Source of the DNA: Haliotis asinina | Taxonomy: Eukaryota > Mollusca > Gastropoda > Lepetellida > Haliotidae | Direction of reading: 5' to 3' | Assembly: GCF_037392515.1 (NCBI RefSeq) | Contig: NC_090295.1 | Coordinates: forward strand, 17,579,501 to 17,643,500 | Length of the DNA: 64,000 nucleotides | Part shown: positions 26,557 through 64,000 of the stretch, piece after piece | Numbering within the stretch: position 1 is the first letter of the stretch | Layout of the letters: each line of letters starts with the position of its first letter | Notes under the pieces: model-generated | Told to the model about the DNA's origin: nothing | Seen by the model: the letters and a program-made list of their open reading frames with translations, nothing else | The model's database searches: none | Made by a program: the position numbers and the translations under genes

Positions 26557-26565
26557 TGTCGTGAG

Positions 26566-31295: not shown

Positions 31296-31299
31296 TTAA

Positions 31300-33184: not shown

Positions 33185-33188
33185 TTAA

Positions 33189-34360
33189 GGTTGATACGTT
33201 GATTGTGTCGTGATATTGCCACAAAGATTTTGCGATCGTGTCACAACAGAGAAGGAAAGTTCTGTCACAAACCAAAGGGAAGTTGATTTTGACTAGTAGT
33301 GTACAACACTATCATGCGTTCATACATATGTCCACTGACAAAATGTAAATGTTGCAAAAATGCAGAAAAGAAAGTTGCTTCCCAAGCTAAAAAGAGGAAG
33401 TTGTTTTTGACCGGTGGTGTATGATGTCCGTTTGACGTAATGAAGACTGTCAAGACGGATGTGACCGAAGTGGCTCAGGCCACAATAACAAACGGAAGAA
33501 TGACAAGGCATCTAGGAAGTCTGGCATATTGCTGTATATCGAGGCACTTCGCCCCAGCCTTGTCTTAACCAGTGTTGTATTTTGGAAAGAAAGCTTATAC
33601 GAGTTTTAGAAATCACAGCTTTTAACAATTCTTTGAGTGAATCGAAATAAATATTTATATTTTGTTCTTTTCATCAAATGCTATTATATTCATTTCATTG
33701 ATCACTCACTGGTATATCAAGTGTTTCAAGTCTGATTACGTTCAAATTTAATCAAGGTTGGTATTAATCTAATCCGTGTAAAACGAACACTCAGTAATCC
33801 AGACAGAAACGTCCTGAAGATGAAAACAACGAATAATTGTTTATTTTTAATAAAAAGTGTGTATCCGTATAACCAACGATTGGGATGGAAGCTTTCAGGG
33901 AAAACGAAGGATGTTTGAAAGCACATGCTTTACATGGTCCGAAAATATGAATGTTTACGTTTCAGTATATTCCCTGGAGCAAACCCACTTGTTAACGAAT
34001 ACCCAGACTGATCTTCAGTTTCCAGTTAAATTAGTTAGACGTCAGTTAGACGTTGTGTTTGCAGCCCTTCAGCAACAGTTTCTAGGAGAGTTATGTTTCG
34101 ATACCGTGTTGAAAGATTTTCATTAACTCTGATTTATGGGCGGATGTTATTTTTTCCCTGGCAATTGATTTTCATCGTTATTTTTCTTTTTACACACTAC
34201 AGAAACTCTTTTTGGAATAGCCCATTGTTGTCGAGGTATGAAATGCTACTTTTAAATGAAATAATCATATAGGTCCCCTGAAGTTGTTGTATTTAATAAC
34301 AATATAAACGTGTTCAGCATATGTCATATTTGGGATTTCACTTCCTAATTAAAGTACAAA
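33189..34360. other. no gene seen
   Basis: AT-rich spacer. A short repeated phrase (gaagttgattttgactagta / gaagttgtttttgaccggtg) occurs at about 33280 and 33400. Nothing else is recognised. Confidence 0.4.
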
Positions 34361-40624: not shown

Positions 40625-41024
40625 ATGAACGTATCTCAGATGCAGGAGGTATGGAAACTATGACGCTTTCTTGGAGTAAATATATACAGGTCAGTGGCCA
40701 TTTTCAGATTTGACAACTCAGTGACATCTAACGATGCGGTCGTGTTTAGATTCATATGTACCCGTATTCGCAAGAGAGAAATACTCATTTGGCTTTGCGT
40801 GTATTTGTGACATGTTCCACCCTGGAACAGGAACATGAAATATGCTTATGCGTTCAGAATACTTTGCAGTTAGAAGCAATTCATTTTGTCGCTTTGAACT
40901 AACCAAATCATTCAATGATATGTTTTGAACAAGAATGACCACGTACGAAATTGATCGCTCTTGTTTTGCACCTATGTGATATTGTATCTTGTGTATTGAT
41001 ATATGATATTGTGTGTGCATGCAG

Positions 41025-41195
41025 ATGGCAATTGTGCAGATTATGTTAGAGAGGTGCATGTATGAAGGGAATTATGCAGATTTTATCAGGAAGGTGCATG
41101 TATGTTGATGAAAATTATGCAGATTATATTAGAGAGGTACATGGATCGCGTCCGTAAAAATGTTGATTATATCAAAGAAGTATACATATATTGCT
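41025..41195 (+). repeat. imperfect local tandem repeat
   Basis: Variants of atgcagattat(a/g)ttagagaggt(a/g)catg recur three to four times. The same block is at 60130-60300 in unit D with one unit partly lost. Confidence 0.7.
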
Positions 41196-41204
41196 GGAGT
41201 GAGG

Positions 41205-41750
41205 TACATTTAGATAGATACTTTTATTAGATAGATAGGATATTTATATAGCGCACATATCCACGCACAAGTGCATGCTCAAGGCGCTGGTATTTTCCCC
41301 TCGATCACTGGATGTCAATCTCAACAGCACATCGTTTTTCAATCTCAACTCCCTAGGGAGTATACAACTCTTGCTGCCACCAGGCGCACCGAATTTATTG
41401 TGGCTCTCATCCTAACGAGGTACCCAGTTGAGAGTTGGGTGGACTGGGACACATGGTCACAGCACTTTGTCTAAGTTTACTGCACGTTGCTGTACCCGCA
41501 ACTAGGTGTATGCATGTGTTCATGTGGCCACCATCTGGTCATATACCAACGGATTCGTGGGTTCTTTTAAGTGCACAGGATTGTGTACTGTACACTAGGG
41601 GTTGTGACAACACTGAAAGAGTCTGTACAGAAAGCTGACTCCAAGGTTTTTACACCCGGTCAAAGGTGGGCTCGATCTCGACACCTCAACCTCGCTGGAT
41701 CACTAGCCTGGTGCCTTAGATATCTCGCCCACCATGCCCCCATTTGTGCT
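41205..41750 (-). repeat. SINE-C, Leu-tRNA-like head, in unit A
   Basis: The minus strand from about 41745 reads ggcatggtgggcgagatatc then taaggcaccaggctagtgat and gtcgagatcgagcccacc, aligning with the A box, the extra arm and the B box of a leucine tRNA. The other end has a gatagata simple tail and the tatatagcgcacatatccac motif. The 540-bp length is long for a SINE. Confidence 0.6.
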
Positions 41751-44053
41751 TGATCATGAAGATTACATCAGATTCATACATATATCGTGACTGAAAGCCA
41801 TGCAGCGCACATCAATGGGTACAGTATGTGTGTAGTGCTGATTACAGCGTATGTTGACCAATATCGCCAGCAGTAATGTAGCTCCGCGAACATGACATAA
41901 GAAGTGAAACACAACTGTTCTTTTCTACCTCTACATCATTTTCGTATGACCTTATTCAAAGGTACGTCAATAAATTTCTTTGAGAAGTATTTAGAAGCTA
42001 ATGTTTTGGATAAGGAGATTTCTTTAGAGCAACGTTCCAGTGTAGCTCTTAACACTTGCTTGATGGCCGTGTAAGGAACTTCGTAGAAATGGCGCACAGA
42101 TTTATGATAGAGAAGTTGTATATTCAATAACATTCCTCGTTGAGTTTGTAGATTGCTAGGAGCTATTATTACCTATCATTTCCGCTTACCGGTCAGCGGC
42201 CAAACGCACCTACGCTCAGTAATTAGTGTGACAACCCTGACACACCTGCTTCTATTTGTGTTCTTATACTGGCAGTTCAACACAAGCTCTGTACATGTAT
42301 TCACAACATTTTGTAGATGCACCGTTTTTCATTGTCTCACATTTTTTTAATATTGTTGGGAGCAGATTCTTCTCATCTTGCTTCCACGGCATGTTTGAAT
42401 CACGCCATTAATACATCAGCTTTTTTAGAAATATGTTTTAGTTCTACGTCTCAAATGGCAATCCGAATTACGAGGAATCGGAGCCTGGTTGTTTTCGGTT
42501 CTATTTTAGAATAGGTTGTGAAAAGCTTTGATGTGCAAAAAGAAGGAAAAATGTTAAATGTCAAGTTGCTCTAACAAAAATCCTTCTTCAAGTTTCTGAG
42601 ATCCAAGGAAGTTGGGAATCCACAAACATATTTTCGTTCTTGTAGAACATTTTGTGTTTAAGATGAAAAAACCCCAGAAATTTATGTTACGATTTTGGAT
42701 CAAGGGATATACAGTAAAACTATATTTTTCAATACAGTACATGTTGCAGAAAGTCTCAAATTAATGAATTTGTCTTGACGTCTCTTGCCTTCGTGCATTC
42801 CCCATATATTGGGAACGACAGACTTCCTTTCTGGCATCAGAATAGATATATAATTATATATACATAGTAATCAACCTGATCTCAAGACCTCGTTTCATAA
42901 AAGTCTAAAATAGTGACTTTGTAAAGTTAAACAGTTTTGTTTCCTTGATGGTTTGTTTGAGTCCATCACTTTAATGGATACCAAATCGACATATACACGC
43001 ATTCTGATGGAGTCATTCAATGTCTGGCGTCTAGGCAGCCTTCCCCAGTTCTCCTGAAATGGCAACAAGACATTCTGTCAGTGACATCGTTATCTATCCT
43101 AGACACCTGGGCCATGTCAATTACTGTCCAGCTGCATAGCCATGACATAACACCGAAATGCCACCGATACCGTCACCTCTTCTCTTAATGATTGTTGGCA
43201 GGGAAATATGTCCAAACTTTGTAACTGAGATTGTCAGAACGTGGAAAGGTTTTACCAGCGGACCCATAACCCTATCAAATATAACTGTCACCCGTAAACA
43301 CATAATGACATTCCCTAATATAAGATGTTTATTGTCCTTAAGTCCTTGAAAAAGCAGTCTGTGCGCAAACAAATGAGAGGTTTCCTCATGTAGAGTCTTT
43401 TAATGATCGTCTTGCTTCTGTATCATTCCGTGGTCAATGAAGACAAACGAGGGGACGCTGTTAGGCAATGTTCGGTGTCACAGATCAGATGGTAATCAGA
43501 AACATGATTATTGCAAAAGGCGACTAAAACGGTCGCTGCCTTATTAACACATATTCCTGGTCATTATATCAGTGACTGGATGGTCTGGTAGTTTTGCCAA
43601 TTATACTTCGAAGAAACTAGGGTCTAATTAGACACAAGACTTCACTAATCACCTGTTATTTCCACAGTTACAGCACCATCCCAACCTTTAGTATCTTATC
43701 CCAACTTTTGTATATCGCTAGACTATCTTAGTTAGAATCCACCTGACGAAGGGGCAAGGGGTAACCCAGAAACGTCGTGCAGACAATAAAACAGTTAGAT
43801 CCATAACGTTTTTCATTAGAATACGTCTCAAAAGCTTCCATAGTGAAATATATATTAAAACACTGTTATGTAAGTGACATCCAGAAAACATTATTTCTTG
43901 TATTTGCAGACAAAGGATAGTTTGTATTACTGCGGCAATGTTGGAACTTATGAAACACAAGCACCAGAAAACAATCAGTCGATTAACCAGCCAAACAGCT
44001 TCAGCAAGACCGAGTTGTCTACTGTTTGAGTTACGTCAACAGTGATGTATGTG

Positions 44054-44159
44054 TGACGTCACACATCACGAGCTCTGAACTTCACGAACAAAGTTCTATG
44101 TGTGACGTCAACAATACCACAGTGGTTGTACCGTTGATACCGACTTATGCACGACGTCA
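44054..44159 (+). promoter_or_regulatory. cluster of cAMP-response-like palindromes in unit A
   Basis: TGACGTCA at 44054-44061 and 44103-44110, and CGACGTCA at 44152-44159, spaced about 49 bp. The first sits in a larger palindrome (gatgtatgtgtgacgtcaca). All three are kept in unit D near 63160-63265. The sites fit CREB/ATF binding; function is inferred. Confidence 0.5.
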
Positions 44160-44879
44160 ATACGGTTGACCTGTGAAACCACGACCCTAATTACTGACAT
44201 AAATGGGTAATACGTCATGTTTATCTACACTGTCCAATGTAGTGTTACATAAGCTATTAAAATTCAACATGTGATTAAGCTGCTAGAATTCCCTTTAAAA
44301 ATGAATTAACCATATATAGAATCTAATTTCACCGTTTGCCATAAACAATTTTATCTTTTCAGTGCAATGCTTTATGGCGTCTCTGAAATGGGTAGCTACT
44401 TGAGCACGGGAAATGAAAAAGAAATTTTCATTTCCTGTTCGTGTTGCCTATTGGCATATTCCCCAAAACACTTATCTGTCATTAAATTTGCATTTGCTTT
44501 TACTGTTCCATTCTGGTAAAAACAGTAGGAGTCATTATTTGCAGGGATTATGACAACAGCGATCTGGTTAGAGAAATATAAATGCCCCCACACAAGCATG
44601 AATCGCATTGTGCAATAAAGCATCATTAATTATGTTAGGAGAGATAGAAGAAAGGTATTGGGAAGGGTAGGGTTGACCTTAGGTGGATTGGTAATTACGA
44701 TACCTCAGCAATCCCAAGATTTTTTCTTATGCCTTGAATATTTCATTGATTTTAATAATTTTTCTTTCAGGGTAAAGTAGACCTCGATCAATAGAAAGGT
44801 AGGTCCCACTGAACGCGAGGAATGACAGAAGTCAGACAACCAATAGAGAGGGAAAAAAGCAAGTGTCCTTTGTTCGTGA

Positions 44880-47800
44880 CATTTTCTTGTGTGCGGTTAT
44901 GACGCTGATCCTGGCACGACTTTCATTGCCTTCATCACGTCAGCATCCCCCAATTACAAGGACGCCGCTGGCGGCAGAATTGTTCCAAGGTCATTGTGTA
45001 GTAGACTCACATACGATACTGTGACGCATGACCGGAAGTGATCGATCTATTTGTTACTTTGCCGACCGTGTTCTATCATTAGAGAAGGACATCGGTTTTG
45101 TTGGAGTTGCTTTACGTGCAATGAACCCGATGCGTGTTATTGTTTCTGTCGGATTGGCTAATGACCAGTTACGTGATGCTGGCAGGCACAGACAGCGTAC
45201 AGTGCAAACCAGAAGTGACTTTCACCTAAATGAGAGCTATGCACCATGACCTGAGACTCAATGTTCGGTCAAGTTCCAGCCAATGCAATCAGTGACAAGT
45301 ATCATAATGACTGTGTAATCAGGAGATCATGAGATACCAGACTGATAGAAAGTTAGGTTAAATAGGTGTGAGGTTTTAGGTTATTGCTTTAATATAGCAG
45401 CGTACATACACGGGATATTCCACTGACTGTATACTACATTTAAAGATGGTTGTTTCCCATGATGTTATTGTTCTATTCAAATAGAATGTTTTCAGAGACA
45501 AAGCGCTTGTCTGACAGCCAGACTCAAACATGAAACGTAATTCTTCATGAAAGGATCGAAATACAGAACACCAGTTCTCTTTGACCATACTCTGTGCACT
45601 CACCCTGAAATATGGTTTGGGTGTAGCCTCCCTTTAACTGATGACAGCAATTGGAGGGTTCGGACCCCATGAACAGCCAATATAAATATATCTGTCAAAC
45701 AAATGCAAAGAAATGCTATTCAAGGTCCAAGGGGAAATGAAATCCCATAGATGAAACTGGTCCGCTTCACTGATGGATGTTGTAGTTTACATAACATATT
45801 GTATATGGAGGCAGTCCTGAGACGTTGATATGCAATAAACGTCGTTATCTCAAAAGATTTCATATATCCAGGTAAAATCTCAATTCAAAATCACACAAAC
45901 AATGCTATATGATTAAATATCATTTGAGAATGTATGTTTGAGAGATGTGGTAGTGAGATGATTAGAATGTAAGAGAAAAAGGTTTCGTTTCTTGATGGGC
46001 TTCACTAGATAAACGTTAGAAGCACTCAATGTTTGTGTCATTGCTGTCCTGTTACATGGGTCAATAAAGAGACACTGACATGCTGCCCATCTCGAGATAA
46101 TCCCTAGTGTCAAGTAATATAACCTGACATTGCACATACATACACGGACTTCTCATAATTCAAACAGTTACGATGATAATCCACCTCTTAAATCAGTCAT
46201 AAATATTGCCAAATTGTTTTAATTTTTCCCTCCCATAATAACAGGCCAATATGTACACCTCCCCAGTGTTCAGTTAACCCTGTTTGGGTTGTCGCAACTC
46301 GACCCTTAAGCTGCCTGACATCGGATCGGGTTAAATTCTGTGTACGCTTTACAATATTATCATGCAGTACAACCAATACTTGTAATGTCTCGACTTGTTG
46401 GCACACAAGGCAGGCATATATGAGGACTGTGATAATTGTTTATGTCTCACTTGGGTTGAAGATATTTTCTCCAAAGACTGAAATGGCACCGCTGAAGATT
46501 CAAATTGTACCCAGAAAGGATTAGGAATAATCTGAGGTGAACGTGCTGGTCGTGCCACGAGCAAAGTATTGAGAGAATGTGATTTGCCTTCTTGTAGTTT
46601 ATCAATTGTGTGGGATGTAGTGGCTCTTAAGGGCGTAAGTACATAATTATGTTCAACCGTTGCTTCAACAAATGTACGCTGTATGCTTTCCTCTGTACGT
46701 AGATGCTGTAGAAGATGCTCAGCTATAGCTAGGGTTTTGTTTTATTTTTTAAAGTGACATTTAGAAGTTACTGTGATGAAGAGGGAGAGGTTATATGGAG
46801 TGACAACTTCATTATTGCAATGGTGGCGACGGCTCTGGGTAGATGCTAACATCGTTTCCTTGCAATGCACCGAAAAACTGCACTAAAGAAGTTGCCAAAC
46901 ATGCATGTTACTGACAATTGTGATTCTGTTCTTACTTTATTGGTCAGCCAACCAAATGGGATGGGATCATGGTTGTTAAGTGACTACTGAGAATAGAGTG
47001 AATCTGAATGTATCGTTCAATTTTCAAAAGCATCTATTCATTTTAAGGAAGTAAGATGCGGGTCTCCCAAAGCCGCCATATTACAGATGGAATGGTGCTG
47101 GAATAAACTGAGGCTCACTCGTCTGCTTAAAACAGAAAGATGTAGTGTAAACTACTAAGAAATAACATAGCAAGTGACTGGGAGAAATATACAAGTTCAT
47201 TCTATCCGTCACTTTGTGATTAGCAGGTCATTATAGTGAAGCCAAATAAAAAGGAAGTGGGAGGTCAAAGGTGGGACTGATTTCAATTACGACGACAAGG
47301 CCCCTCTCCTTTAATGAAGCTTATAGTTGATGAATGTGCTGACTGTCCCGTTCAACTCATAATCCCTTGACGGGTTATTTCAGAAGTCGGGTGCACTTAA
47401 ACTCTATCGGAAGTTGTAACACCCATGTCGCTTGTTGTTGTCGCACATTTCAAACTCCTATTCAAATTTCAACTTTAGTATTCCTAAAAGTGGGGTAAAA
47501 CAATACTCGCTCACACATCAGAGTATTACAGAAATCAGTTTCACCGAACTTCCAGCAGAAGTTGAAGCAATATTTTTTTGTGACACTTTTCAATTTCTGG
47601 GAGAGACTTTAGTTCACCAGGGGGGTTCTATATCTACTGTCTCTGGAAAATATCAGTTTAGTTTCATCATTCATAATTAAATGCATAATGCACTTTGGCA
47701 TGCATTTAGTTGCTTCGAAAACTCATCTTTAAGTAGTGAATGTTTTCAAGGAATACTTCAGACAAGATATTAAACAAGGTTAAGGTGTCCCATAAATAGT

Positions 47801-48685
47801 GTATTTTCTCCTTTAAAGTGTAAAAATATGGGTTAATAGACAAACTAATACCATGTTGATGCTCCGAGGTTTACGTTATCTGAGTATTTGTTAAAAACTG
47901 CATTTGATATCTGATAAGAACCAAGTATTGTTAATATACCCGCTGCAAATATATACATCGTTTAAGTTAGAACCCAAATGAACTCGCTGCTAATATGTAG
48001 AGAAGATTTCGCATTAACAAGGTCTGGTTTCACGTTGTCATTAAAGACGTGTAATAGCTCTATCCAGATTTGGGTAGCTGTTTTGGTAAACTTGTCTTCA
48101 TAAAGTTTTGCGACATCATTACAGAGTTGGTAATGTGTCCAAGTGGGGGTGTCCATTTTAAAGAGAGACGATATTTCAGTAGAACAGAACAATAAAGTCG
48201 ACTAAGGCCAACGTTGGTGCAACCGGGCACTTGTCAAAACTCACTTGAAGATCATATGAAAGTTGATATCATTCCATTTATACAGTTTCGTGACAATCAT
48301 GGTCCGAGGAAAACAGTTGGCGCATATAAATATTCTTCCTTCTAAAGGTTATCTTTAAATTCAGTTCGTTTATGTCACAAGAAATGCGATATTATATTCC
48401 CCAATTGTTCTGTAGTATTAAGTGTTTGAATCAAACATTACAAAGGCATTTCGTTTGATTATCTCTGACATGAAAGGACAAGCTAAAATCAGCATGGTGG
48501 TTGTGCTTAAGCATGACGAAGATGTATAAGTCAGGCAATTGTGTGTCCAAATGGGAAACTGTTTTTGTGACACGATACCTACATGTACACGGTGCTTTCT
48601 CTTGTCGGCGATTGGGATTTCCGGATATCACGGGTCAAATGTTTCCCTTGTGTCAGTTATCCACCGAAGAGTTGTTGTCTATTGA
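44880..48685 (+). repeat. macro-repeat unit A, second part
   Basis: Matches unit B in blocks: 44880-45350 to 50690-51170, 45355-46730 to 51170-52530, and 48240-48685 to 52720-53280. The segment 46930-48240 is missing from B but partly matched in C (about 58190-58290 and 59640-59900). Confidence 0.8.
44930..45125 (+). promoter_or_regulatory. conserved promoter-like block in unit A (ETS consensus)
   Basis: Contains cgtcagcatcccccaattac, ggacgccg, and accggaagtg at 45031-45040, followed by tagagaaggacatcggtttt. It is among the best conserved parts of units A, B and C. ACCGGAAGTG is a full ETS-family consensus. No transcript is seen, so a promoter role is inference. Confidence 0.4.
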
Positions 48686-48800
48686 TTAACACTGCCCTCA
48701 GCAATATTTCAGCTGTATTTCAGCAGCCTGTAAATAACCGAATTTGGCCCGGTCAATCTGGTGATCAACAGCATGGGCATCAGCTCCACAAACATGGCAT
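48686..48800 (-). repeat. SINE-B fragment at the start of unit B
   Basis: actgccctcagcaatatttc, gtaaataaccgaatttggcc, caacagcatgggcatcagct. The same truncated copy is at 53279, so it was present before unit duplication. Confidence 0.7.
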
Positions 48801-49804
48801 GATGACGCAGCAAACGGGGCACTACTGACCCTGTCTGATTCAACATCAGTATCCATGTGACCATATTCAAGGGCATGCCAATTTCTGGAACTTATTTCCT
48901 ATCGTTTCTGCTTACCGTTCCATGGTCAAGCACAGCAAAGTGTGTGACATCCCCCGACACACATGCTTCTCTTTGTTTTGTTATACTCGAGCTCAACACC
49001 GACATTTTTGTCTGAAATATTCTTTTCATAACAATGTGGATAACAATTTCTCCTTATCTTGCTTCCATGTTATGTTTGAATCATGTCATTAAAGTAACAG
49101 CTCTTTGCAAATTAAATCTCAATACTGCGTCTCAAATGATATCTCCAATTACAAAAGACACATTCTTAGTATCATACAAAATACACATTGGGACCTAACT
49201 TTACTGGAAGTAGAATAGAGATAAAAGCAGCTCTACGGAAATAGATTGGAGTCTGGTTGTTTTCAGTGCTATCTAAAAACACGTGGTGAAAAGTATTGAT
49301 ATATTTGTAAGAAGGAGAGATATCTTTAATGTCAAGTTGTTGTAACAAAATCCTTGTTCAGTTTTTAGACACAAGGATGATGCAAACCTACTCATAAAAA
49401 TTTCTTTGTAAATATTAGTATTTTTTGTGCTGACACATGAGACGACTTCTCTTACCTGTTTCCTCATTTTGTGAAAGTGAGACGCCTTGGTGGTTTATAA
49501 TGAAGCTGAGTTTAATTTTAGAATGGGCATTTCAAAAGTCATTTATAATACAATATTATCGCACACTAATTTGCATAAAGTCATGGTCTGTTCCAAATAA
49601 ATCGATGTGGACTTGAAAAACAGCATTGCTCATTTCTTCACTAATCTCTCCACAGTAAAGTCCTTTTTCTACGTTCCCTATCTGCCTACCACTGGAACTG
49701 TAGTTAGGCCGAACTTTGTTTAACAGACATTTCATACATTAACTGCAGAAACTGTATTAATATGAACAATTCATTTAAACAAACTTGCATACCTGTAATT
49801 ACAG

Positions 49805-49949
49805 AAAGTACATGTATCGACCATTGCCAGCATGGTGTGTGTCAGGCATATGACACGTGCAGTCTTTGTATCACTTGAGTGCACAGACTGCAGGAGCAGC
49901 GTGTGTCAGAGCCCCGGATGTAGCTGCTGGCAGTCAGCTTATCAGTATG
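49805..49949 (+). pseudogene. EGF-like exon with a one-base frameshift
   Basis: Acceptor acctgtaattacag precedes it and donor G|gtaagc follows, both phase 1. The first frame reads STCIDHCQHGVCQAYDTCSL and reaches TGA. One base later the frame CTDCRSSVCQSPGCSCWQSA runs to the donor. The cysteine pattern resembles multiple-EGF (laminin/scavenger-F type) repeats of secreted molluscan proteins. The 145-bp length does not fit phase 1 to phase 1, confirming the shift. It is either a dead exon or a sequencing error. It would join in phase with the signal exon at 30428. Confidence 0.55.
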
Positions 49950-50744
49950 GTAAGCTGTTAGGGACACAATTCCCAATTTGTGAAATGTGCCAGTAGTGAT
50001 ATGCTATATGAAGAAATAAACCTCTAACGTGTTAGTTTATCAACGTTTCGCATATGCAACGCTACATAACCTTTGTGAAATCCAGTATGTGATCAGGTTG
50101 CTGGAATGTCTTTGAAAATATGGATGAACCATATAAAGAACTTAATTCCACAGTTTGCCATTAAGAGTGTTATCATTACAGTACAATGCTTTCTGTGGTC
50201 TCTGGAAAGGGCAGCTGTGTGAGGATGGGTAAATGAGAAAGAAGCGTTCATTTCCTGATCACGTTGCCTATCAGAACAGTCGTCAAAAAGACCCAGACCC
50301 CATGGTTATATATTTGCTGCTACTGTGACATTAGCGATAGAGTTAGAATAATACATCAGTTTCACACAGTTTCACACGATATTGCATAATAACATATGAC
50401 TTAGTATGAATGGAGTAAGTGTATTTTGCCTTGTTCGTTGTGTGTGTATGTTTGTGCGCGCGTGTGTGTGTTGGGGTGTGTATGTCGGGGTCTGGAGAGT
50501 GAGAGTGAGAGTGAGAGTGAGACACTCAGAGAAGGCGTGTATAGTCGACCTTTTTTAGGGCAACAAGCGCCTTGAATATCTAATTGATTTAATTGTCTCA
50601 TGGTAAAGTTCTATATGGTTGTAAGAGTCGACTGATCACACAGGCTGTAAGGCATCTAACAGCCAACTGTAAGGAAAAAGGAATATGTACGTTGTTCGTG
50701 GCAGAGTGCATGTCTGCTGTTATGACGCTGACTTTCAAACGCCT

Positions 50745-50930
50745 TTATCGCGTCAGCATCCCCCAATTACAAGGACGCCGTTGGCCGCAGAATTGTTCCA
50801 AGGTCATTGTGTAGTTATCACACACACAGACACTGTGACGTATGACCGGAAGTGATCAATCTGTTTGTAACTTTGGCGACCGGCGTACGTTCTATCATTA
50901 GAGAAGGACATCGGTTTTGTTGGGGTTGCC
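50745..50930 (+). promoter_or_regulatory. conserved promoter-like block in unit B (ETS consensus)
   Basis: gcgtcagcatcccccaatta, ggacgccgttggccgcagaa and accggaagtg at 50845-50854. Collinear with the blocks in A and C. Confidence 0.4.
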
Positions 50931-53278: not shown

Positions 53279-53405
53279 TTGATTAACACTGCCCTCAGCA
53301 ATATTTCAGCTGTATTTCAACAGCCTGTAAATAACCGAATTTGGACCGGACAATCTGGTGATCAACAGCATGGGCATCAGCTTGTGACTCCACAAACATG
53401 GCATG
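53279..53405 (-). repeat. SINE-B fragment at the start of unit C
   Basis: Same truncated copy as at 48686: actgccctcagcaatatttc, cggacaatctggtgatcaac. Confidence 0.7.
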
Positions 53406-53948
53406 ATGACGAGGGAAACGGGGCACTACTGACCCTGTCTGATTCAACATCAGTATCCATGCGACCCTTTTCAAGGGCATGCCAATTTCTGGAACATATT
53501 TCCTATCGTTTCTGTTTACCGTTCTGTGGTCAAGAACAGCTATGCTTGATAACTAGCGTGACATCCTCGACACACCTGCTTCTCTTTATCTTATTAAACT
53601 CAAGCTTAACTCGAAAATTGCCTCAATTTTTTCATAACGATTTTGAGAACAGATTCTTCTCATTTATCCTCCGTGTCATGTTTGAATGATATAATTAAAC
53701 ATTTTTTAAAACTTAAGTCTCAGTACTGCGTCTCAATTGATAGCTCAAATTACACAGAGACGTTCTCAGTTGAACACACATTGGACCTTACGTGACTGGA
53801 CGTAGAATCGAGATAAAAGCAGCTCTACCGAAATCGATTGGTTGTTTTCAGTGCTATCTAAAACCACATGGTGAAAAGGAATGATATCTTTAATGTGATG
53901 TTGTTGTTACGAAAACCTTATTCAGTTTTAGACACAAGGCTAATGCAG

Positions 53949-54035
53949 TTAGTGAGTGAGTGAGTTAGGTTTTACGCCACACTCAGCAATATTCCCGTGG
54001 TCTGTAAATATTCGAGTTTGGACTAGCCTATTCAT
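53949..54035 (-). repeat. SINE-B tail fragment
   Basis: gtgagtgagtgagttaggtt, ttacgccacactcagcaata, gtaaatattcgagtttggac. It lies where unit C has lost the EGF-like exon. Confidence 0.7.
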
Positions 54036-55002
54036 CCGATTTCGGCCTACGAAAAGCATAGTCACCTTCCGCTTCAAGTATATGTTGCTGAAAGCCTATT
54101 CTAAATCTATCATCAAAACAGGAACCTCTCCGCCCCCCCCCTCCCCTAACTACATCACGACCTTTAGGAAACGTGTGTGTTGAAATGAAACTTAGATTTC
54201 AGAGTATAAAGAGCAATTTGAAACTGGAAACCCAAGGAAATCCATGTGATGCGTTACTGTATCAACGTTTCTCATATGCAGTGCTACATAACGTTTGTGA
54301 AATCCAATATGTGATCAGGTTGCTGCATTGTCTTTGAAAATATGGCTTAACCATATACAGAACCTAATTCCACAGTTTGCCATTAAGAGTGTTATCATTA
54401 CAGTACAATGCTTTCTGTGGTCTCTGGAAAGGGCAGTTATGTGAGGATGGGTAAATGAGAAAGAAGCGTTCATTTCCTGATCACGTTGCCTATCAGCACA
54501 GTCGTCAAAACACTCAGACGCCATGATTATACATTTGCTGCTATTGTGGTCTCTTTTGGATGAAAATCACTACGAGACTATTTCACTGTAAAGACTACCT
54601 ACACTGCACAATAACGTATGACTTCATATGAGTGGTGTCAGTGCATGTTGCCATGTTCGTTATATTTGTGTGTTTGTGTATGTGTTTGCGTGTGCGTGTG
54701 TGTGTGCATATGTTGAGAGAGAGAATGAGAGTGTGAGCGAAAGAGAGACAGTGAGGGAAAGCGCGTATTGTCGACCCTTTCTTAGGGCAACAAGTGGAAG
54801 CGTCTTTCTTGTGCCTTTAATATTTAACTGATTTCATTGCATCCAGAAAAAGTTCACCATGAGTGTAACAGACGACTGAGCATGCAGACTGCCAGACATC
54901 AAACAACCTACTGTAAGGGAAAGAGCAAAGTGTACGTAGTTCGTGGCAGTTTGTATGTATGCTGTCATGACGCTGATCCTGACAGCTGATCCAAGGCTTT
55001 CA

Positions 55003-55190
55003 TCACGTCAGCATCCTCCAATTACAAGGACGCCGTTGGCCGCAGAATTGTACCAAGGTTACTGTGTAGTTATCACACACACAGACACTATGGCGCATGA
55101 CCGGAAGTGATCAATCTATTTGTAACTTTGCCGGCCGGCGTACGTTCTATGATTAGAGAAGGACATCGGTTTTGTTGGGGTTGCGTTTCG
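55003..55190 (+). promoter_or_regulatory. conserved promoter-like block in unit C (ETS consensus)
   Basis: cgtcagcatcctccaattac, ggacgccgttggccgcagaa, accggaagtg at 55100-55109. Confidence 0.4.
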
Positions 55191-55399
55191 TGTAATTCAC
55201 CCCAAGCGTGGTATTTTTTGTCGGAATGGCTAATGATGAGTTACGTGCTGCTTACAGGCACAGACAATATACAGTACAGACCTGAAGTGACTGTTACCTA
55301 AAAGAGAGCTGAAATCTGAAGCCTGAAATGACTTTTATCTTAAGGAGAGCTATGCTCTATGACCTGAGACTCAATCTTCGGTCAAGGTCCAGCCAATGT

Positions 55400-57420
55400 A
55401 ATTAGTGACAACGATCCCATCTGACACCGTGCAACTGGGGAATCACGAACTGACAGACTGATATACGAGGTTAAATATGTATAACGTTTTACATTATTGC
55501 ACGTTTGTGGCGAGGGGTAGTCCCACTTATCTGGTCAGGTAATGCAGAGTAAACGGATTAAATCTTGCGCTTGGGTTGAGGCTCGTTATGATAAGTTTCA
55601 GTGAGTTTTCAGTGGCCAGGTGGTATTTTCCAAAAGGGAACGAATTCACTAGATGGGGTATAAATAAGAAATGGGTATGCTTTATGTCATTGCAGCTATG
55701 GCAAATGAACAAATTCCTCGTTTCATTCCTAACGGTCGTGGAGGTCAATATTTAGGTTACTTTGGGTACAAATTTTGTATTAAGTCTAGGAATTCACTAG
55801 AAATATCAGAAGACTTGTCGTTGCACCATCAACACACAGAACCTGGTGACAACCTACAACAATTCTCACAACCACCCAGATGACAACGACAGGATCCAGA
55901 TCGACGAATTCATCTGAAGCATCTTGGTCAGAAGTCGTCAAAATCAATGCCGAGCATGTACATAGAATAAATAACAGATAATTACTTGTTTCTTACATGT
56001 CAAGATTAAATTTAAAGTTAAATTTCAATTTTCTTACATGAATGTATGTGCAAGTATATTGTACAAATCTAATACTGATGCTTTTTTTCATTTAGGTCTG
56101 CGAGGAGATGGAGATGAAGACGCTGTCATCAGTCATATCCCAACCTATCCCGCAATAAAATCTTCTTTGTACTGAGCGAGGGCCAAGACAAGACGTGCTC
56201 TTCAACGTCATCGCCCTGACATTGCACTTCCAGAGATGTACACCAAGACTACGGCCGGCGACAACTTCCTCCTGGCATCAGACGGGGACCGAGACACGAT
56301 ATGAACGCTTTTTAAGAATTGTGAAATCCCATGCTGAAACTCTACATCTCAGCCTATCGCCGACCAGCATTTTCACCAACTTTGAACGTCCAGAAGTGCA
56401 ATTTGTTGAAAAAACGAAAATAGCGTCAACTGGACATGTATAAGAGACACTTTTTAGGCGGACACAAATCTTCTGTGCAGTACCTCGATGCTGTGTCACA
56501 TATTACTGGCTATTGATTATCATTTATATGTATCCTCATAGTGTATTTACATTGTCATGAATGTCAGAATGTCTTGTTATGAAACATTAAATGCAGTGTT
56601 AAAATGTTGTTAAAATGTGTTATCGTTTTAACCTGTTAACCCTTATAAAGATATAACTTAATATATGTTGCTCCTACTTGCCCGGTAACTTTCCAATGCA
56701 GACTCTAGATGGTACATCAAAGATAAAACGTTACTGCCCATCCGGGATTATCTGTCAGCACATGAAACAATCCGGACAGGTGGGACTGGCCCTGTGGCGA
56801 GAGACATATACGTGTATCTGCGTGTGCTAATACATGCTTGAGTGCTTGAATCAGTCCGGACTATAGTCAGTGCTGGTTATCAAGAGTCTCACAGAGACAT
56901 CATGCGGTAGATGTAACATGAATATCTCATTACGATACAGTGTACTGAATCAAAGATGTCCAGTTGACTGTTGTTTCCCTGAAGCTGATAGTCCGTGAAG
57001 CACATTGATTTCCCTTCCGTCTCAATTTTCCTCATTTAAACCCCCCATCTAATTTAGCATCCAATTCAAAAGGAACGGAATTTTATGTTTCTATCAAAAC
57101 TAAGTTTTGAAAGAAGAGATAGGTAAGAATGACATTCACAACACCTTTGTGTGAACATTGTAGATGAGGCTTCTGACCCTCCAGAGTCCAGAATTTGGAA
57201 GGTCTGTAAGATTGATGCAGATTATGGAACAGGAGAGTTCTACAAACAGTGTTTCAAACTATGCAACTTTGTTTGATAATTGTTGTCCACACTTGGTTGA
57301 ACGGAAATGTAGTGAAGCTGCAAACAATATACCTCCCCGAGGCACCGAGTCTGGCACAATTCAACCCAAAAGATGTCACTGGATCGGACTAAATGTCCGT
57401 TCACCGTTTACGACATAATC
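55400..57420. other. inserted segment in unit C carrying the MULE remnant
   Basis: This stretch has no counterpart in A or B, while both flanks do. Outside the transposase remnant nothing is recognised, and the element's inverted ends were not found. Confidence 0.45.
55698..56443 (+). pseudogene. MULE (Mutator-like) transposase with FLYWCH domain, broken
   Basis: By family, such transposases bind and cut transposon ends in the nucleus. A likely start ATG (55698) follows ttgcag and gives MANEQIPRFIPNGRGGQYLG then GYKF, the start of a FLYWCH zinc finger. A frameshift near 55800 moves to KTCRCTINTQNLVTTYNNSH then NHPDD, the C-C...HNH end, and stops at 55915. At 56098-56304 the frame SHIPTYPAIKSSLY, stop (TGA at 56173), ARAKTRRALQRHRPDIALPE fits the region between FLYWCH and MULE domains and ends after GDNFLLASDGDRDTI. 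One base over, YERFLRIVKSHAETLHLSLS to 56443 fits a later part of the MULE domain, so the catalytic centre is largely deleted. Non-functional. Confidence 0.7.
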
Positions 57421-58374
57421 ATGTAGCCAAACCAATATTTATAATGTCTCGACTTGGGTTCGAGATATCTTCTTCCATGAATGAAATGGCTCCGTGGGCC
57501 ATGGGAGATTCAAACTGCACCCAGAAAAGATTAGGAATAATCCGAGCTGGACATGCTGGTCGTGCGGAGGATTGGGAGAAAAAAATGTGTCCTTTTGTAG
57601 TTTATCGATTATGTGAGATGTGATTTCTCTGAAGGGCGTAAGTACATATTATGTTTAACTGTTGCTTCAACAAATGCACGCTGTCTGCTTTCCTCTGTAC
57701 GTGGCATGTTGAGGTTGGTATGAAGAAGAGGAACAATCTGTATGGATTGACAATTTTATTGTAATGGACGGGACATTTCTGTGAAGAATCTAACAGCATT
57801 ATCAAGTACTATACTGTAATGTTGCATCCATTGCAATGAAGAAGTTGTCAATCTATAAAACCTGTTCCTCTTCAACATCAATGTTATTGACTAATGTGGT
57901 TCTTGAGGAGTACTATTCGGGGATTTTTTATACGTTTTTTGATATATAAACATTTTATGTTCCTGGAAACATAAATGAAAACAATGCTTTAGTGGTCAGC
58001 TAATCAAAGGTCATCGGGTCATGCGACTGGTTCAGAGACTACTTAGAATAGAATATACTCTTAATGCGTCTGTTCATTTATCCGCACATTTTCACTGAAC
58101 TGAGATTCGACTCCTCTAAGGTCGTCACGTTGCAGGTGGAACAGTACTAGAGAAATGCTGCGAACTAGCCCGTTTACAACAGATTTATGAATTGTAACTA
58201 CTGACAAAAGACACATTAAGTGACCGGGAGAAATATACCAGTTCATTATATCCATCAGTTCGTCATATGCGAGTTCGTATTAAAGGTAGGTCACTGTCTG
58301 TTAGGGGAATCCAAACAAAGATTAAGAACGGATCTGCGGGGAAAGGATTACGTGGAAGGCCAAAAATGGGACTG

Positions 58375-58524
58375 GGGCCCGTTTCACAAAACTCTCGTAA
58401 GCTTAAGATCTCGTAACTTTTCTCGTAGCACTTGCACCTGGCATACTGTAACATAGGAGGTACAAGTGCTACGAGGAAAGTTACGAGATCCTAGGCTTAC
58501 GAGAGTTTTGTGAAACACGGCCCT
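58375..58524. mobile_element. palindromic foldback MITE (family P), best copy
   Basis: The left arm ggggcccgtttcacaaaact, ctcgtaagcttaagatctcg, taacttttctcgtagcactt is matched inverted by aagtgctacgaggaaagtta, cgagatcctaggcttacgag, agttttgtgaaacacggccc. About 65-bp arms leave a loop of under 20 bp. It should fold into one long hairpin if transcribed. Confidence 0.85.
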
Positions 58525-59039
58525 GGTCTTAATTACGTCGAGATGGTCTTACTCCCTTAATGAAACTGGTACTTCCTGATTCTGTTGACAGTCCCGTTCA
58601 ACTCATCACCCCAACAAAGGGGTATTCCAGAAATCAGCCATACCGAACTCCTCAGAGTGGTTGTAACAATAATGACGTTTCTTGTCACATATTTTCATTT
58701 CTATGTCACATTAAGTTCTTAAAGGATGATTGTATACACTGAGAGGCAATACGAACGCCTATTAAGAATAAGCGTCAGATATATTTCTCATTTGTCCAAA
58801 TATTACATTTGACCGTACAGGAAGTGGTATTATGATGACTTGTTAACAGTACTGCAGTGTTTACAGAGGATTATGGATGCAGCATTGTCTTTGCGTGCAT
58901 CTCCAAAACAAGTGATATTAAATCACACAGCTGTCAACTGACACATCTGAATACCGTGTGTGTCCTCCTTGGGGTGCCGCGCAAGCCTGGAGTCTGCCAG
59001 GCATTGATGAACACAACCTGAAGTGATTCCGCTTGCTGG

Positions 59040-59230
59040 TGGCTGACGACGATGTACCGATCCTGCCTTTGTGACGTCACACGAGGCGCTCCCGCACGTG
59101 GATGGTCTTGCACATTTCCTGTTGCCCTGTGATGTCGCTGCAGCCTAGGAACGGTCGTCTTGTGGTCGTGGAAGTGATTAACATCTTTCTGTGTTTGGCC
59201 AGCATGCACCAGTCCAGTGGTTCCCTTGGG
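59040..59230 (-). pseudogene. Tc1-like transposase N-terminal fragment
   Basis: The minus-strand frame reads GLVHAGQTQKDVNHFHDHKT, then VPRLQRHHRATGNVQDHPRA and GAPRVTSQRQDRYIV. This matches the paired helix-turn-helix region and the GRPRVT linker of Tc1-like transposases. One residue near RPRSGRP is changed and sequence beyond RYIV is unrecognisable, so the catalytic DDE domain is absent. Confidence 0.7.
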
Positions 59231-60303
59231 TGTTGCTTAACCGTGGCATCGTTAGTGTGAATGATAGCCATTTCACAACATGTGTCTTCACTAGAGACGG
59301 GGGTGCACATTGCACGTGCACCATCATTTTCTGTTCATCCAACTGCATCGTCATGAGGAATGCTGTTGGGTGCGTTTGAGATGTCACGTGATTTGAAAAG
59401 GTGGAATTCGAACCTGAACCTCAGAACCGTGCATGTCGTAACCATATGTTTTCACCATATTGTAGTTTGGGAAACAACCACATCTGTAAAACAGACTGTA
59501 GAAAGTCCAATTTTAACGGCTCTCAGTATATTTACTACCCGTGGAAAGAGGTTCGATTTTCCTATAAATCAGATACTTACTTCTCTAAAGTGCAAACCTA
59601 CCTTACCCTAACTCCAGTTTTATAGTCAAAAGGTTTAAGTTTTCTCAGTGTATGTTAAAACTGTTTTTGAAATATGAGAACCAATATATAGTCGCTGCAA
59701 ACATATAGATCACAGACCGGTGGAAAGATAAGACTTTGCATGGATATCATAGGCCAAAATACATAGGTCTTGTTTCCCGTTGTCATTAAACATATGTAGA
59801 CATGTTTCCTGTTTTGTGACACGTTTGGTAGCCTTTTCCGAGACTTGTCGACATAAACTTTAGTGACTTCAGATCGGAGTTAGTTTGAGGCGTCTAAGCT
59901 CAACGCTAGTGAATGCAAATGCAGATATTCTTAGTCTCGACTTTCAACATCCCCCAACCACCCTCATCTAACGTTAACGAATATCATATCCTACAATTCG
60001 CGATCGCCAGAGGTCACGACATGGTGTCACTCACTAAAAGAATAACCACGTACGAAATTGATCGCTCTTGTTTTGCACCTATATGATATTGTATCTTGTG
60101 TATTGATATATGATATTGTGTGTGCATGCAGATGGCAGTTGTGCAGATTATGTTAGAGAGGTGCATGTATGAAGGGAATTATGCAGATTTCATCAGAAAT
60201 GTTGATGAAAATTATGCAGATTATACTAGAGAGGTACATGGTTCGCGTCCGTAAAAATGTTGATTATATCACAGGAGTATACATATATTGCTGGAGTGAG
60301 GTA

Positions 60304-60850
60304 CATTTAGATAGATACTTTTATTAGATAGATAGGATATTTATATAGCGCACATATCCACGCACAAGTGCATGCTCAAGGCGCTGGTATTTTCCCCTCG
60401 ATCACTGGATGTCAATCTCAACAGCACATCGTATTTTAATCTCAACTCCCTGGGGAGTATACAACTCTTGCTGCCACCAGGCGCACCGAGTTTATTGTGG
60501 CTCTCATCCTAACGAGGTAGCCAATTGAGAGTTGGGTGGACTGGGACACATAGTCACAACACTTTGTCTAAGTTTACTGCACGTTGCTGTACCCGCAACT
60601 AGGTGTATGCACGTGTTCATGTGGCCACCATCTGGTCATATACCAACGGATTCGTGGGTTCTTTTAAGTGCACAGGATTGTGTACTGTACACTAGGGGTT
60701 GTGACAACACTGAAAGAGTCTGCACACAAAGCTGACTCCAAGGTTTGTACACCCCGTCAAAGGTGGGCTCGATCTCGACACCTCAACCTCGCTGGATCAC
60801 TAGCCTGGTGCCTTAGACATCTCGCCCACCATGCCCCCATTTGTGCTTGA
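60304..60850 (-). repeat. SINE-C, Leu-tRNA-like head, in unit D
   Basis: Same element as 41205-41750 at the same place in the duplicated unit, so it was copied with the unit rather than inserted separately. Confidence 0.6.
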
Positions 60851-63159
60851 TCATGAAGATTATATCAGATTCGTACATATATCGTGACTGAAAGCCATGC
60901 AGCGCACATCAATGGGCACAGTACGTGTGTAGTGCTGATTACAGCGTATGTTAACCAATATCGCCAGCAGTAATGTAGCTCCGCGAACATGACATAAGAA
61001 GTGAAACACAACTGTTCTTTTCTACCTCTACATCATTTTCATATGACCTTATTCAAAGGTACGTCAATAAATTTCTTTGAGAAGCATTTAGAAGCTAATG
61101 TTTTGGATAAGGAGATTTCTTTAGAGCAACGTTCCAGTGTAGCTCTTAACACTTGCTTGATGGCCGTGTAAGGAACTTCGTAGAAATGGCGCACAGATTT
61201 ATGATAGAGAAGTTGTATATTCAATAACATTCCTCGTTGAGTTTGTAGATTGCTAGGAGCTATTATTACCTATCATTTCCGCTTACCGGTCAGTGGCCAA
61301 ACGCACCTACGCTCAGTAATTAGTGTGACAACCCTGACACACCTGCTTCTATTTGTGTTGTTGTACTGGCAGTTCAACACAAGCTCTGTACATGTATTCA
61401 CAACATTTTGTAGATGCACCGTTTTTCATTACCGAAATTGTCTCACATTTTTTTAATATTGTTGGGAGCAGATTCTTCTCATCTTGCTTCCACGGCATGC
61501 TTGAATCACGCCATTAATACATCAGCTTTTTGAGAAATATGTTTTAGTTCTACGTCTCAAATGGCAATCCGACTTACGAGGAATCGGAGCCTGGTTGTTT
61601 TCGGTTCTATTTTAGAATAGGTGGTGAAAAGCTTTGATGTGCAAAAAGAAGGAAAAATGTTAAATGTCAAGTTGCTCTAACAAAAATCCTTCTTCACGTT
61701 TCTGAGATCTAAAGATGTTGCGAATCCACAAACATATTTTCGTTCTTGTAGAACATTTTGTGTTTAAGATGAAAAAAACCCAGAAATTTATGTTACGATT
61801 TTGGATCAAGGGATATACAGTAAAACTATATTTTTCAATACAGTACATGTTGCAGAAAGTCTCAAATTAATGAATTTGTCTTGACGTCTCTTGCCTTCGT
61901 GCATTCCCCATATATTGGGAACGACAGACTTCCTTTCTGGCATCAGAATAGATATATAATTATATATACATAGTAATCAACCTGATCTCAAGACCTCGTT
62001 TCATAAAAGTCTAAAATAGTGACTTTGTAAAGTTAAACAGTTTTGTTTCCTTGATGGTTTGTTTGAGTCCATCAGTTTAATGGATACCAAATCGACATAT
62101 ACACGCATTCTGATGGAGTCATTCAATGTCTGGCGTCTAGGCAGCCTTCCCCAGTTCTCCTGAAATGGCAACAAGACATTCTGTCAGTGACATCGTTATC
62201 TATCCTAGACACCTGGGCCATGTCAATTACTGTCCAGCTGCATAGCCATGACATAACACCGAAATGCCACCGATACCGTCACCTCTTCTCTTAATGATTG
62301 TTGGCAGGGAAATATGTCCAAACTTTGTAACTGAGATTGTCAGAACGTGGAAAGGTTTTACCAGCGGACCCATAACCCTATCAAATATAACTGTCACCCG
62401 TAAACACATAATGACATTCCCTAATATAAGATGTTTATTGTCCTTAAGTCCTTGAAAAAGCAGTCTGTGCGCAAACAAATGAGAGGTTTCCTCATGTAGA
62501 GTCTTTTAATGATCGTCTTACTTCTGTATCATTCCGTGGTCAATGAAGACAAACGAGGGGACGCTGTTAGGCAATGTTCGGTGTCACAGATCAGATGGTA
62601 ATCAGAAACCTGATTATTGCAAAAGGCGACTAAAACGGTCGCTGCCTTATTAACACATATTCCTGGCCATTATATCAGTGACTGGATGGTCTGGTAGTTT
62701 TGCCAATTATACTTCGAAGAAACTAGGGTCTAATTAGACACAAGACTTCACTAATCACCTGTTATTTCCACAGTTACAGCACCATCCCAACCTTTAGTAT
62801 CTTATCCCAACTTTTGTATATCGCTAGACTATCTTAGTTAGAATCCGCCTTACGAAGGGGCAAGGGGTAACCCAGAAACGTCGTGCAGACAATAAAAAAG
62901 TTAGATCCATAACGATTTTCATTAGAATACCTCTCAAGAGCTTCCATAGTGAGGTATATATTAAAACACTATTACGTAAGTGACATCCAGAAAACATTAT
63001 TTCTTGTATTTGCAGACAAAGGATAGTTTGTATTACTGCGGCAATGTTGGAACTTATGAAACACAAGCACCAGAAAATAATCAGTCGATTAACCAGCCAA
63101 ACAGCTTCAGCAAGACCGAGTTGTCTACTGTTTGAGTTACGTCAACAGTGATGTATGTG

Positions 63160-63266
63160 TGACGTCACACATCACGAGCTCTGAACTTCACGAACAATGT
63201 TCTATGTGTGACGTCAACAATACCACAGTGGTTGTAACGTTGATACTGATTTATGCACGACGTCAA
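63160..63266 (+). promoter_or_regulatory. cluster of cAMP-response-like palindromes in unit D
   Basis: Counterpart of the cluster at 44054-44159: tgtgacgtcacacatcacga, gtgtgacgtcaacaatacca and gcacgacgtcaatacgg are all kept despite neighbouring base changes. Confidence 0.5.
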
Positions 63267-64000
63267 TACGGTTGACCTGTGAAACCACGACCCTAATTAC
63301 TGACATAAATGGGTAATACGTCATGTTTATCTACACTGTCCTATGTAGTGTTACATAAGCTATTAAAATCCAACACGTGATTAAGCTGCTAGAATCCCCT
63401 TTAAAAATGAATTAACCATATATAGAATCTAATTTCACCGTTTGCCATAAACAATTTTATCTTTTCAGTGCAATGCTTTATGGCGTCTCTGAAATGGGTA
63501 GCTACTTGAGCACGGGAAATGAAAAAGAAATTTTCATTTCCTGTTCGTGTTGCCTATTGGCATATTCCCCCAAACACTTATCTGTCATTAAATTTGCATT
63601 TGCTTTTACTGTTCCATTCTGGTAAAAACAGTAGGAGTCATTATTTGCAGGGATTATGACAACAGCGATCTGGTTAGAAAAATATATATGCCCCCATACA
63701 AGCATGAATCTTATTGCGCAATAAAGTATGATTAATTATGTTAGGAGAGAAAGAAAAAAGGTATTGGGAAGGGTAGGGTTGACCTTAGGTGGAATGGTAA
63801 TTACGATACCTCAGCAATCCCAAGATTCTTTCTTATGCCTTGAATATTTCATTGATTTTAATAATTTTTCTTTCAGGGTAAAGTAGACCTCGATCAATAG
63901 AAAGGTAGGTCCCACTGAACGCGAGGAATAACAGAAGTCAGACAACCAATAGAGAGGGAAAAAAGCAAGTGTCCTTTGTTCGTGACATTTTGTATGTATG

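Follow-up and report, generated by a model that had tools for sequence, protein, structure and literature searches.

What kind of repeat fills the right-hand part of this window, a 64,000-nucleotide stretch of one 49.7-Mb contig of Haliotis asinina, and does it carry genes? The initial annotation placed a four-copy tandem array of a large, unrecognised unit at 40931..64000 and offered three readings of it: a macrosatellite, a tandem array of a non-coding RNA locus, or a decayed gene cluster.

Organization and extent of the array

Self-BLAST of 40931-64000 (word size 7, E<1e-3) gave 27 non-trivial matches, of which 25 are on the same strand, where they stand in collinear order, and 2 are short matches on the minus strand. 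Comparison of the region with its own reversed sequence gave no matches (0). This is not the picture of scattered shared transposons only. Blocks start at 44196/44207, 50013, 54246 and 63302 (44.2, 50.0, 54.2 and 63.3 kb), and the offsets of 5.8, 4.2 and 9.06 kb agree with the spacing of about 5.8, 4.2 and 9 kb annotated for collinear blocks recurring in one direction at four positions. The blocks are thus indeed tandem, but the 44.2-kb and 63.3-kb copies belong to successive copies of a 19.1-kb repeat, and the supposed fourth copy (63.4 kb) is the start of unit U1 in the second 19-kb block, S2. A young pair, 40931-44893 versus 60038-64000 at 97.5% identity, had gone unnoticed. The annotated limits also proved too narrow, since the array runs on past the 64-kb window to ~113.7 kb in window coordinates, and a decayed remnant lies to its left:

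31296..33189, + strand: decayed remnant left of the array, the interrupted link part of an older unit, in three pieces at 70-75% to 104680-105968
40931..60037, + strand: 19.1-kb block copy S1 (U0 tail, U1, U2, U3), boundaries from junction comparison
60038..64000, + strand: start of block copy S2, 97.5% to 40931-44893, extending beyond the window to ~79800
63302..64000, + strand: start of U1 in S2, from self-BLAST

The whole array covers ~73,000 bases, with three 19.1-kb blocks in a row (S1, 40931-60037; S2, 60038-79800; S3, 79801-102802) and, after S3, a more diverged, old unit at ~102.8-113.7 kb. The segment 40931-48343 matches 60038-67435 at 97.4% and 79801-87122 at 96.6%. Alignments among S1, S2 and S3 span 7.4-11.3 kb at 96.5-97.4% (shorter pieces, 93.5-97.7%), and substitutions between blocks range from 1.01 to 4.61% depending on region. 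S3 has a private 5.3-kb insertion with a LINE and a 2-kb deletion, and S1 is without ~170 bp present in S2 at 67436-67608. An apparent switch from U1-like to U3-like sequence in the last 9 bases of the window was considered as a recombination point and dropped, as the alignment continues to 67435 at 97.4%.

A 1-kb query from the B block (44300-45300, the sole block searched genome-wide) gave at least 10 matches in the 1.14-Gb genome; all 10 fall inside C16:17.62-17.69 Mb, which is this array, and both counts are lower bounds. Among the matches listed in a limited search of the literature on abalone tandem or segmental duplication, satellites, macrosatellites and genome assembly, the array is undescribed, and two short repeat strings had no occurrence in a literature text search.

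Inner units

Within each 19.1-kb block lie three much older units of ~5.8, 4.2 and 5.8 kb, preceded by the tail of another. Their aligned parts are 64-84% alike.

40931..44195, + strand: U0, unit tail (A block and link), left border of the young array, from block matches
42166..42666, + strand: A block in U0, with more copies at 48892-49440, 53497-53753 and 61263-61772
44196..50012, + strand: U1, in the order B, C, D, A, link, from self-alignment
48240..48890, + strand: D block of U1, with an old dispersed repeat inside at 48686-48806, from self-alignment
50013..54245, + strand: U2, without a counterpart of 46900-48240, from self-alignment
52702..53496, + strand: D block of U2, with the dispersed repeat of the U1 D block again at ~53283-53378, from self-alignment
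54246..60037, + strand: U3, C block retained, second half of B unrecognisable, truncated by the block junction, from self-alignment

In the aligned B parts, U1 and U2 agree at 79.9%, U2 and U3 at 81.5%, and U1 and U3 at 68.7%. Over longer stretches, U1 and U2 match at 44196-46897 and 50013-52681 (75.7%) and at 48343-49384 and 52955-53947 (78.5%); U2 and U3 match at 50031-51209 and 54253-55499 (79.0%); and U1 and U3 match at 46435-47236 and 57437-58285 (64.5%) and at 47777-48131 and 59549-59884 (61.9%). The U0 A block (42166-42471 and 42477-42666) matches 48892-49152 and 49245-49440, and the U0 link segment matches the old unit at 104293-104611 and 106408-106935.

Divergence between copies is uneven: a core described below, 45890-46096 and 48660-48915 are more alike than their surroundings, as is 42988-43300 when compared with the old unit. 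Judged from these alignments, such unevenness could mean constraint, and hence function, and it counts against purely passive duplication.

Junctions and proposed growth of the array

The bases across the joins at 60038 and 79801 are identical, and the presumed original borders can be read at 40931 and 102803.

60034..60041, no strand: block junction; the two original borders have ~4 bp in common, and the identical join at 79801 lies outside the window

We propose that old tandem duplications gave rise to the inner units, which then changed by substitution, deletion and insertion, and that the last, diverged unit (~102.8-113.7 kb) is nearest to the ancestral layout. The U1-U3 run would then have been duplicated together as the 19.1-kb block, which is now threefold. 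Because the original borders have only ~4 bp in common at the breakpoint, the founding duplication would have been a microhomology-mediated join, and because both internal junctions are one and the same join, unequal crossing-over of the first two blocks would have produced the third. The closest pair among S1, S2 and S3 switches along the length (5 regions compared), so exchange or gene conversion appears to have continued after the blocks formed; copy-specific substitutions are likewise heterogeneous (chi2 = 87.4, 8 d.f.; without the last region, 32.7, 6 d.f.). The blocks probably go back to a single founding tandem duplication with unequal exchange after it, to the extent that their history can be read from sequence. 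The array is a readable example of tandem-array growth: one contig shows the two presumed original borders along with the founding junction and the second copy of that junction, so the sequence itself allows a microhomology join and later unequal exchange to be inferred rather than just assumed.

A 19-kb repeat could also result from misassembly, with both haplotypes placed in tandem. Heterozygosity is given as 0.43-1.04% across six abalone species (PMC6373831) and as 1.27-1.44% for H. rubra, where haplotig duplication was a problem (PMC6774278), and the block divergence of 1.0-4.6% overlaps these values at its low end. However, there are three copies rather than two, S3 and S1 carry the private changes described above, the closest pair varies along the length, and all copies lie inside the one contig, where the joined 134-kb stretch is free of N. 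An assembly duplicate is thus unlikely, and we give it hardly any credence.

Comparison with known systems

Segmental duplications are defined by a length >1 kb and an identity >90% (PMC3878106). The alignments among S1, S2 and S3 (7.4-11.3 kb at 96.5-97.4%) fall within this definition, and those of U1-U3 (68.7-81.5% in the aligned B parts) fall outside it. The 19-kb blocks resemble tandem segmental duplications, or low-copy repeats, in size, identity, head-to-tail arrangement and mosaic copy relations, whereas the inner units here are far older and under the usual 90%.

In macrosatellites, such as human D4Z4, large several-kb units stand head to tail in many near-identical copies whose number varies between individuals. 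Of the three annotated readings this one is closest in form, in that large, several-kb units are here arranged head to tail in a single direction. The many near-identical copies are lacking: the array counts few copies (three 19-kb blocks and one old unit), the three blocks occupy ~73 kb, the inner units are very unequal, and no reading frame was found. In alpha satellite higher-order repeats, diverged monomers of ~0.17 kb are repeated jointly as a nearly identical multimer. The array has the same logic of several diverged monomers repeated together, but its monomers are 4-6 kb or more, its multimers number three, and it is not known to be centromeric. As for an array of transposable elements, no transposition proteins were found by Pfam at cut-off in 12/12 frame translations of 40931-64000, and the LINE in S3, present in one block copy only, was inserted later. 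The window also gave no curated-family match at gathering score in Rfam, as would mark an array of a known non-coding RNA gene.

Local, nested tandem segmental duplication is the likely explanation of the array. The tandem duplication is clear yet fairly ordinary, and the duplicated DNA is apparently non-coding.

Coding potential

The annotated absence of a known gene family was upheld, with no Pfam match at cut-off and no Rfam match at gathering score. A decayed protein-coding gene cluster, or an unrecognised gene family with very short exons, is an improbable reading; the former, as annotated, found no support in domains at cut-off, in any convincing coding signature or in homologues of the two U2 frames searched. 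The Pfam scans covered six frames of 40931-64000 (12/12 translations, X at each stop), 10 of 70 longer open frames scanned separately, and a 73-aa frame that starts in a 16-mer of the core. This last frame is open in 3/3 U1 copies, but it depends on a 5-bp gap, and 6/6 other copies stop after 19 codons. A 110-codon frame at 46192-46521 is open in both U1 and U2, but shows 6 synonymous versus 35 non-synonymous codon changes. For the U2 frames 50871-51110 and 52046-52432, no candidate with three common 5-residue words was found among ~5.8 billion proteins, and the first of them gave only E values of 0.34 and 0.57 in PDB.

Among shared open segments (n=322), the lowest p for third-position excess is 0.019, uncorrected. 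In a BLOSUM-based coding test of 10 multi-copy blocks, between 13 and 173 of 200 shuffles score at least as high as observed; three blocks come near significance (13, 14 and 15 of 200), but 10/10 miss the corrected threshold. In simulation this test detected 16/25 40-codon exons at omega 0.2, 11/25 at omega 0.5 and 4/25 at omega 1, and is therefore somewhat liberal. Short exons could nevertheless escape it, because just 2/25 simulated 25-codon exons were detected. The island 52702-52990, picked by eye as a splice-bounded coding exon, was dropped at 15/200 shuffles.

Conserved core

A core of ~0.4 kb is the least variable stretch common to units 1-3:

44930..45390, + strand: conserved core of U1; its 16-mer (45028-45043) is invariant in every core copy
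50745..51209, + strand: conserved core of U2, 16-mer at 50842, from unit alignment
55000..55499, + strand: conserved core of U3, 16-mer at 55097, from unit alignment

The whole array has 9 core copies, 3 of them within the window, and one further unit lost its core through a deletion at 89306. This core may be regulatory, a candidate promoter or enhancer. Each unit could then be a gene for a non-coding RNA (or micropeptide), repeated in tandem, with the core as its promoter and transcript start; we consider this improbable, if a shade less so than the coding reading. In its favor, across the opening 1.2 kb of U1-U3 no simple column permutation (0/5000) reaches the low variability of the core, although 26/5000 and 118/5000 block permutations (10 and 25 columns per block) do so. 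CpG observed/expected in the first 0.2 kb of the core is 1.14-1.17 in the three copies (window median, 0.79), and 30/39 CG there are common to the three units, compared with 6/14 downstream and 0/16 upstream. However, this CpG value lies only between the 75th (1.01) and 90th (1.21) percentiles of the window's 200-bp steps, and other dinucleotides are kept as well or better (TG 45/52, GT 45/57). The core is retained in the old unit at 71-75%, and the 16-mer is exact in 9/9 core copies, but an invariant run of 16 bases is not improbable at this level of conservation (~0.1, a rough hand estimate), and the islands 42988-43300 and 52678-53022, both at 82%, match the old unit no less well than the core does. 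The likeness of copies could also come from gene conversion. An exact-pattern scan with a 23-base core piece gave 0 occurrences in viral and prokaryote collections, where such DNA is not expected.

Rfam gave 0 matches at gathering score in the window and only 3 weak matches on the array, each below half its gathering score. No piece of the 8 tested is clearly more stably folded than its shuffled versions (z -1.31 to 0.97; 22 to 168 of 200 shuffles fold equally well). Covariation lends no net support to the consensus fold (+0.25 kcal/mol), though 4/68 pairs show a two-sided change. From sequence, it is a long shot that each unit has a conserved promoter for an undescribed non-coding RNA or micropeptide and that amplification of the 19-kb block was favored for the extra copies. 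Should the core prove to act as a promoter, this would be a non-coding locus in multiple copies, previously undescribed within the searches made.

Two weak microRNA matches at 58400-58497 were not credited, as they lie inside a palindromic dispersed repeat (58370-58538). This repeat recurs at 37934-38080.

Two layers of tandem repetition

Self-comparison of 40931-64000 (E < 1e-3) yielded 27 non-trivial matches, 25 of which run in the same direction, and no match was obtained when the region was compared with its own reversal as a control. The tandem array proposed in the initial annotation is thus real, and the repeated blocks start at 44196/44207, 50013, 54246 and 63302, in agreement with the positions (44.3, 50.1, 54.3 and 63.4 kb) and offsets reported there. 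The array was described as four copies, but two of the four are members of one young repeat. One pair of sequences, 40931-44893 and 60038-64000, shares 97.5% identity, whereas the remaining same-strand relations lie at ~62-79% in raw alignments, with the exception of one 80-bp block (85%). These values indicate two layers of repetition, in which a young 19.1-kb block contains older, diverged units: a unit tail (U0), U1 (44196-50012), U2 (50013-54245) and U3 (54246-60037).

The unit is ordered B (44196-46.4 kb), C (46.4-48.1 kb), D (48.2-48.9 kb) and A (48.9-49.4 kb), followed by a variable link. U0 comprises an A block and link, U2 is without the stretch 46.9-48.24 kb, and in U3 the second half of B cannot be recognised and the block junction truncates the unit.

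The array beyond the window

The window corresponds to C16:17579501-17643500 in the 1.14-Gb assembly of 159 contigs. With 1 kb of the first B block as query, at least 10 matches were obtained in the genome, and all 10 among the matches listed fall within 17.62-17.69 Mb of the same contig. The window was extended by the next 70 kb; the joined 134 kb contains no N. Self-comparison of 40-134 kb gave 216 matches, 201 of them on the same strand; dispersed repeats account for some, and alignments of at least 150 columns were evaluated. Although the array does occupy 40931-64000, the extent initially assigned to it, most of it lies outside the window.

Layout of the array from the extended self-comparison (window coordinates, also beyond 64000)
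40931-60037, block S1
60038-79800, block S2
79801-102802, block S3
~102771-113690, old unit, separate and more diverged

Alignments of 7.4-11.3 kb among S1, S2 and S3 show 96.5-97.4% identity, and shorter pieces 93.5-97.7%. S3 carries a 5.3-kb insertion (~95880-101179), and its two flanks share 11 bp when placed on S1, consistent with a target-site duplication. Within the insertion lies a LINE (~96430-100692), absent from S1 and S2, in which reverse transcriptase (RVT_1, E 1.8e-35) and endonuclease domains were recognised. S3 is also without ~2 kb of U2, corresponding to 50059-52109 in S1. The old unit matches in the order D, A, link, B, C, which suggests that it is nearest to an ancestral layout.

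No further array unit was found in the 30 kb on either side. Comparison of these flanks with S1 and the old unit gave nine matches upstream and two downstream (at least 150 columns). Of these 11, nine trace to a dispersed repeat that lies in the D block or in the old unit, and one to sequence that is also present at 13427; the last (41504-41693, 80%, minus strand) adjoins the previous one and was taken for the same element. A decayed remnant at 31296-33189 consists of three collinear pieces with 70-75% identity to the old unit.

Growth of the array

Four relevant border and junction sites were read directly in the sequence; the sequences flanking the three blocks, left of S1 and right of S3, were taken as the original left and right borders. 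Over the 71 bases compared, the internal joins at 60038 and 79801 do not differ, and each combines both borders, with ~4 bp of sequence in common. A single founding tandem duplication through a microhomology-mediated join, with later unequal crossing-over of its two block copies, would leave such joins, and the array probably grew in this way. The closest pair of blocks varies along the block. It is S1 and S3 across U0 and U1 and again in U3, S1 and S2 in the part made up of D, A and link as well as in the tail of U3, and S2 and S3 in the tail of U2 and in B of U3. Copy-specific substitution counts are also heterogeneous (chi2 87.4 with 8 d.f., or 32.7 with 6 d.f. when the last region is omitted). 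Both observations fit continued exchange among the copies.

An assembly duplicate could in principle produce a repeat such as the 19.1-kb block. Published values of abalone heterozygosity are 0.43-1.04% (PMC6373831) and 1.27-1.44% (PMC6774278), and pairwise substitutions among S1, S2 and S3 range from 1.01% to 4.61% over five regions common to all three blocks. The presence of three copies, their private insertions and deletions, and the mosaic of closest relations along the blocks all argue against an assembly duplicate.

Search for a product

No Pfam match reached the cut-off in any of 12 frame translations, with X for each stop; the best match below it (17.2 bits, E 0.0044, cut-off 27) recurs in the second block. 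Separate scans of 10 open frames, from the 70 that reach at least 70 aa, likewise gave no match at the Pfam cut-off. For two U2 frames, no candidate with three common 5-residue words was found in the protein collection, using a tool of limited sensitivity. In the window, no Rfam family reached its gathering score, and the three matches on the array each stayed below half of theirs. Weak Rfam microRNA matches in U3 are accounted for by a palindromic dispersed repeat (37934-38080 and 58370-58538), one copy of which lies inside U3. Among 322 shared open segments of at least 20 codons, the lowest p for third-position excess was 0.019, uncorrected. A second coding test of 10 blocks, most including the old unit, reached 13/200 shuffles at best, and 14 and 15 for two more blocks; in simulations, this test detected short exons poorly and proved somewhat liberal, so tiny exons could be present. 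Overall, the array is most likely explained by nested segmental duplications, in tandem, of non-coding DNA, in which the 19.1-kb block was amplified recently; it is a clear case of a known type.

A conserved core in the B block

The one feature that could make the array more interesting is a conserved core of ~0.4 kb in the B block.

Positions of the core
44930-45390, core of U1
50745-51209, core of U2
55000-55499, core of U3

The least variable stretch of the first 1.2 kb of the three units is 44950-45099, with 21 of 150 columns variable. This conservation was matched by none of 5000 simple column permutations, and by 26 and 118 of 5000 permutations in blocks of 10 and 25 columns, respectively, computed without the repetitive part 44451-44760. 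In all three copies, the first 0.2 kb of the core has a GC content of 0.47-0.48 and a CpG o/e of 1.14-1.17, which is raised but not extreme for the window (200-bp steps: median 0.79, 75th percentile 1.01, 90th 1.21). CG is common to all three units at 30 of 39 sites in this part, at 6 of 14 downstream and at 0 of 16 upstream, but TG (45/52) and GT (45/57) are equally kept in the core. The core matches the old unit at 71-75% over ~450 bp, and a 16-base word occurs unchanged in each of the nine core copies, on the same strand; this word includes a sequence that we take to resemble an ETS-factor site. Folding z-scores were -1.31 to 0.97 (8 pieces), and covariation gave no net support to the consensus fold, in which both sides had changed in 4 of 68 pairs.

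Several observations count against a special role of the core. It is equalled or surpassed in its similarity to the old unit by other islands (82% at 42988-43300 and 52678-53022, 76% at 43835-44392), and part of D (48660-48915), which includes an old dispersed repeat, is 94-97% alike in U1 and U2 (2/2000 permutations). In addition, conversion among copies can mimic constraint.

Other elements in and around the window

A 33-bp tandem repeat occupies 26554-30018 (~105 copies, 84% matches), and its minus strand holds two open frames (417 and 444 aa) built from an 11-residue repeat. Just left of the array, at 39237-39576, a 32-bp unit is repeated in tandem 10.6 times with 100% matches. The left 40 kb also contains several copies, on both strands, of a ~170-bp dispersed repeat that appears SINE-like by eye.

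Copies of the ~170-bp dispersed repeat (both strands; others occur)
332-480
2739-2901
3108-3257
8737-8904
32652-32818
35150-35312
37016-37185

The sole ARAGORN prediction in the window, a tRNA-Thr at 34381-34475, is a candidate gene or part of a repeat. Left of the window, an open frame at about -579 to -157 presumably resembles a Tc1/mariner-type transposase, judged by eye. Downstream of the array, ~147908-158669 appears by eye to be a Ty3-type LTR retrotransposon, flanked by two end stretches with identical 138-aa frames.
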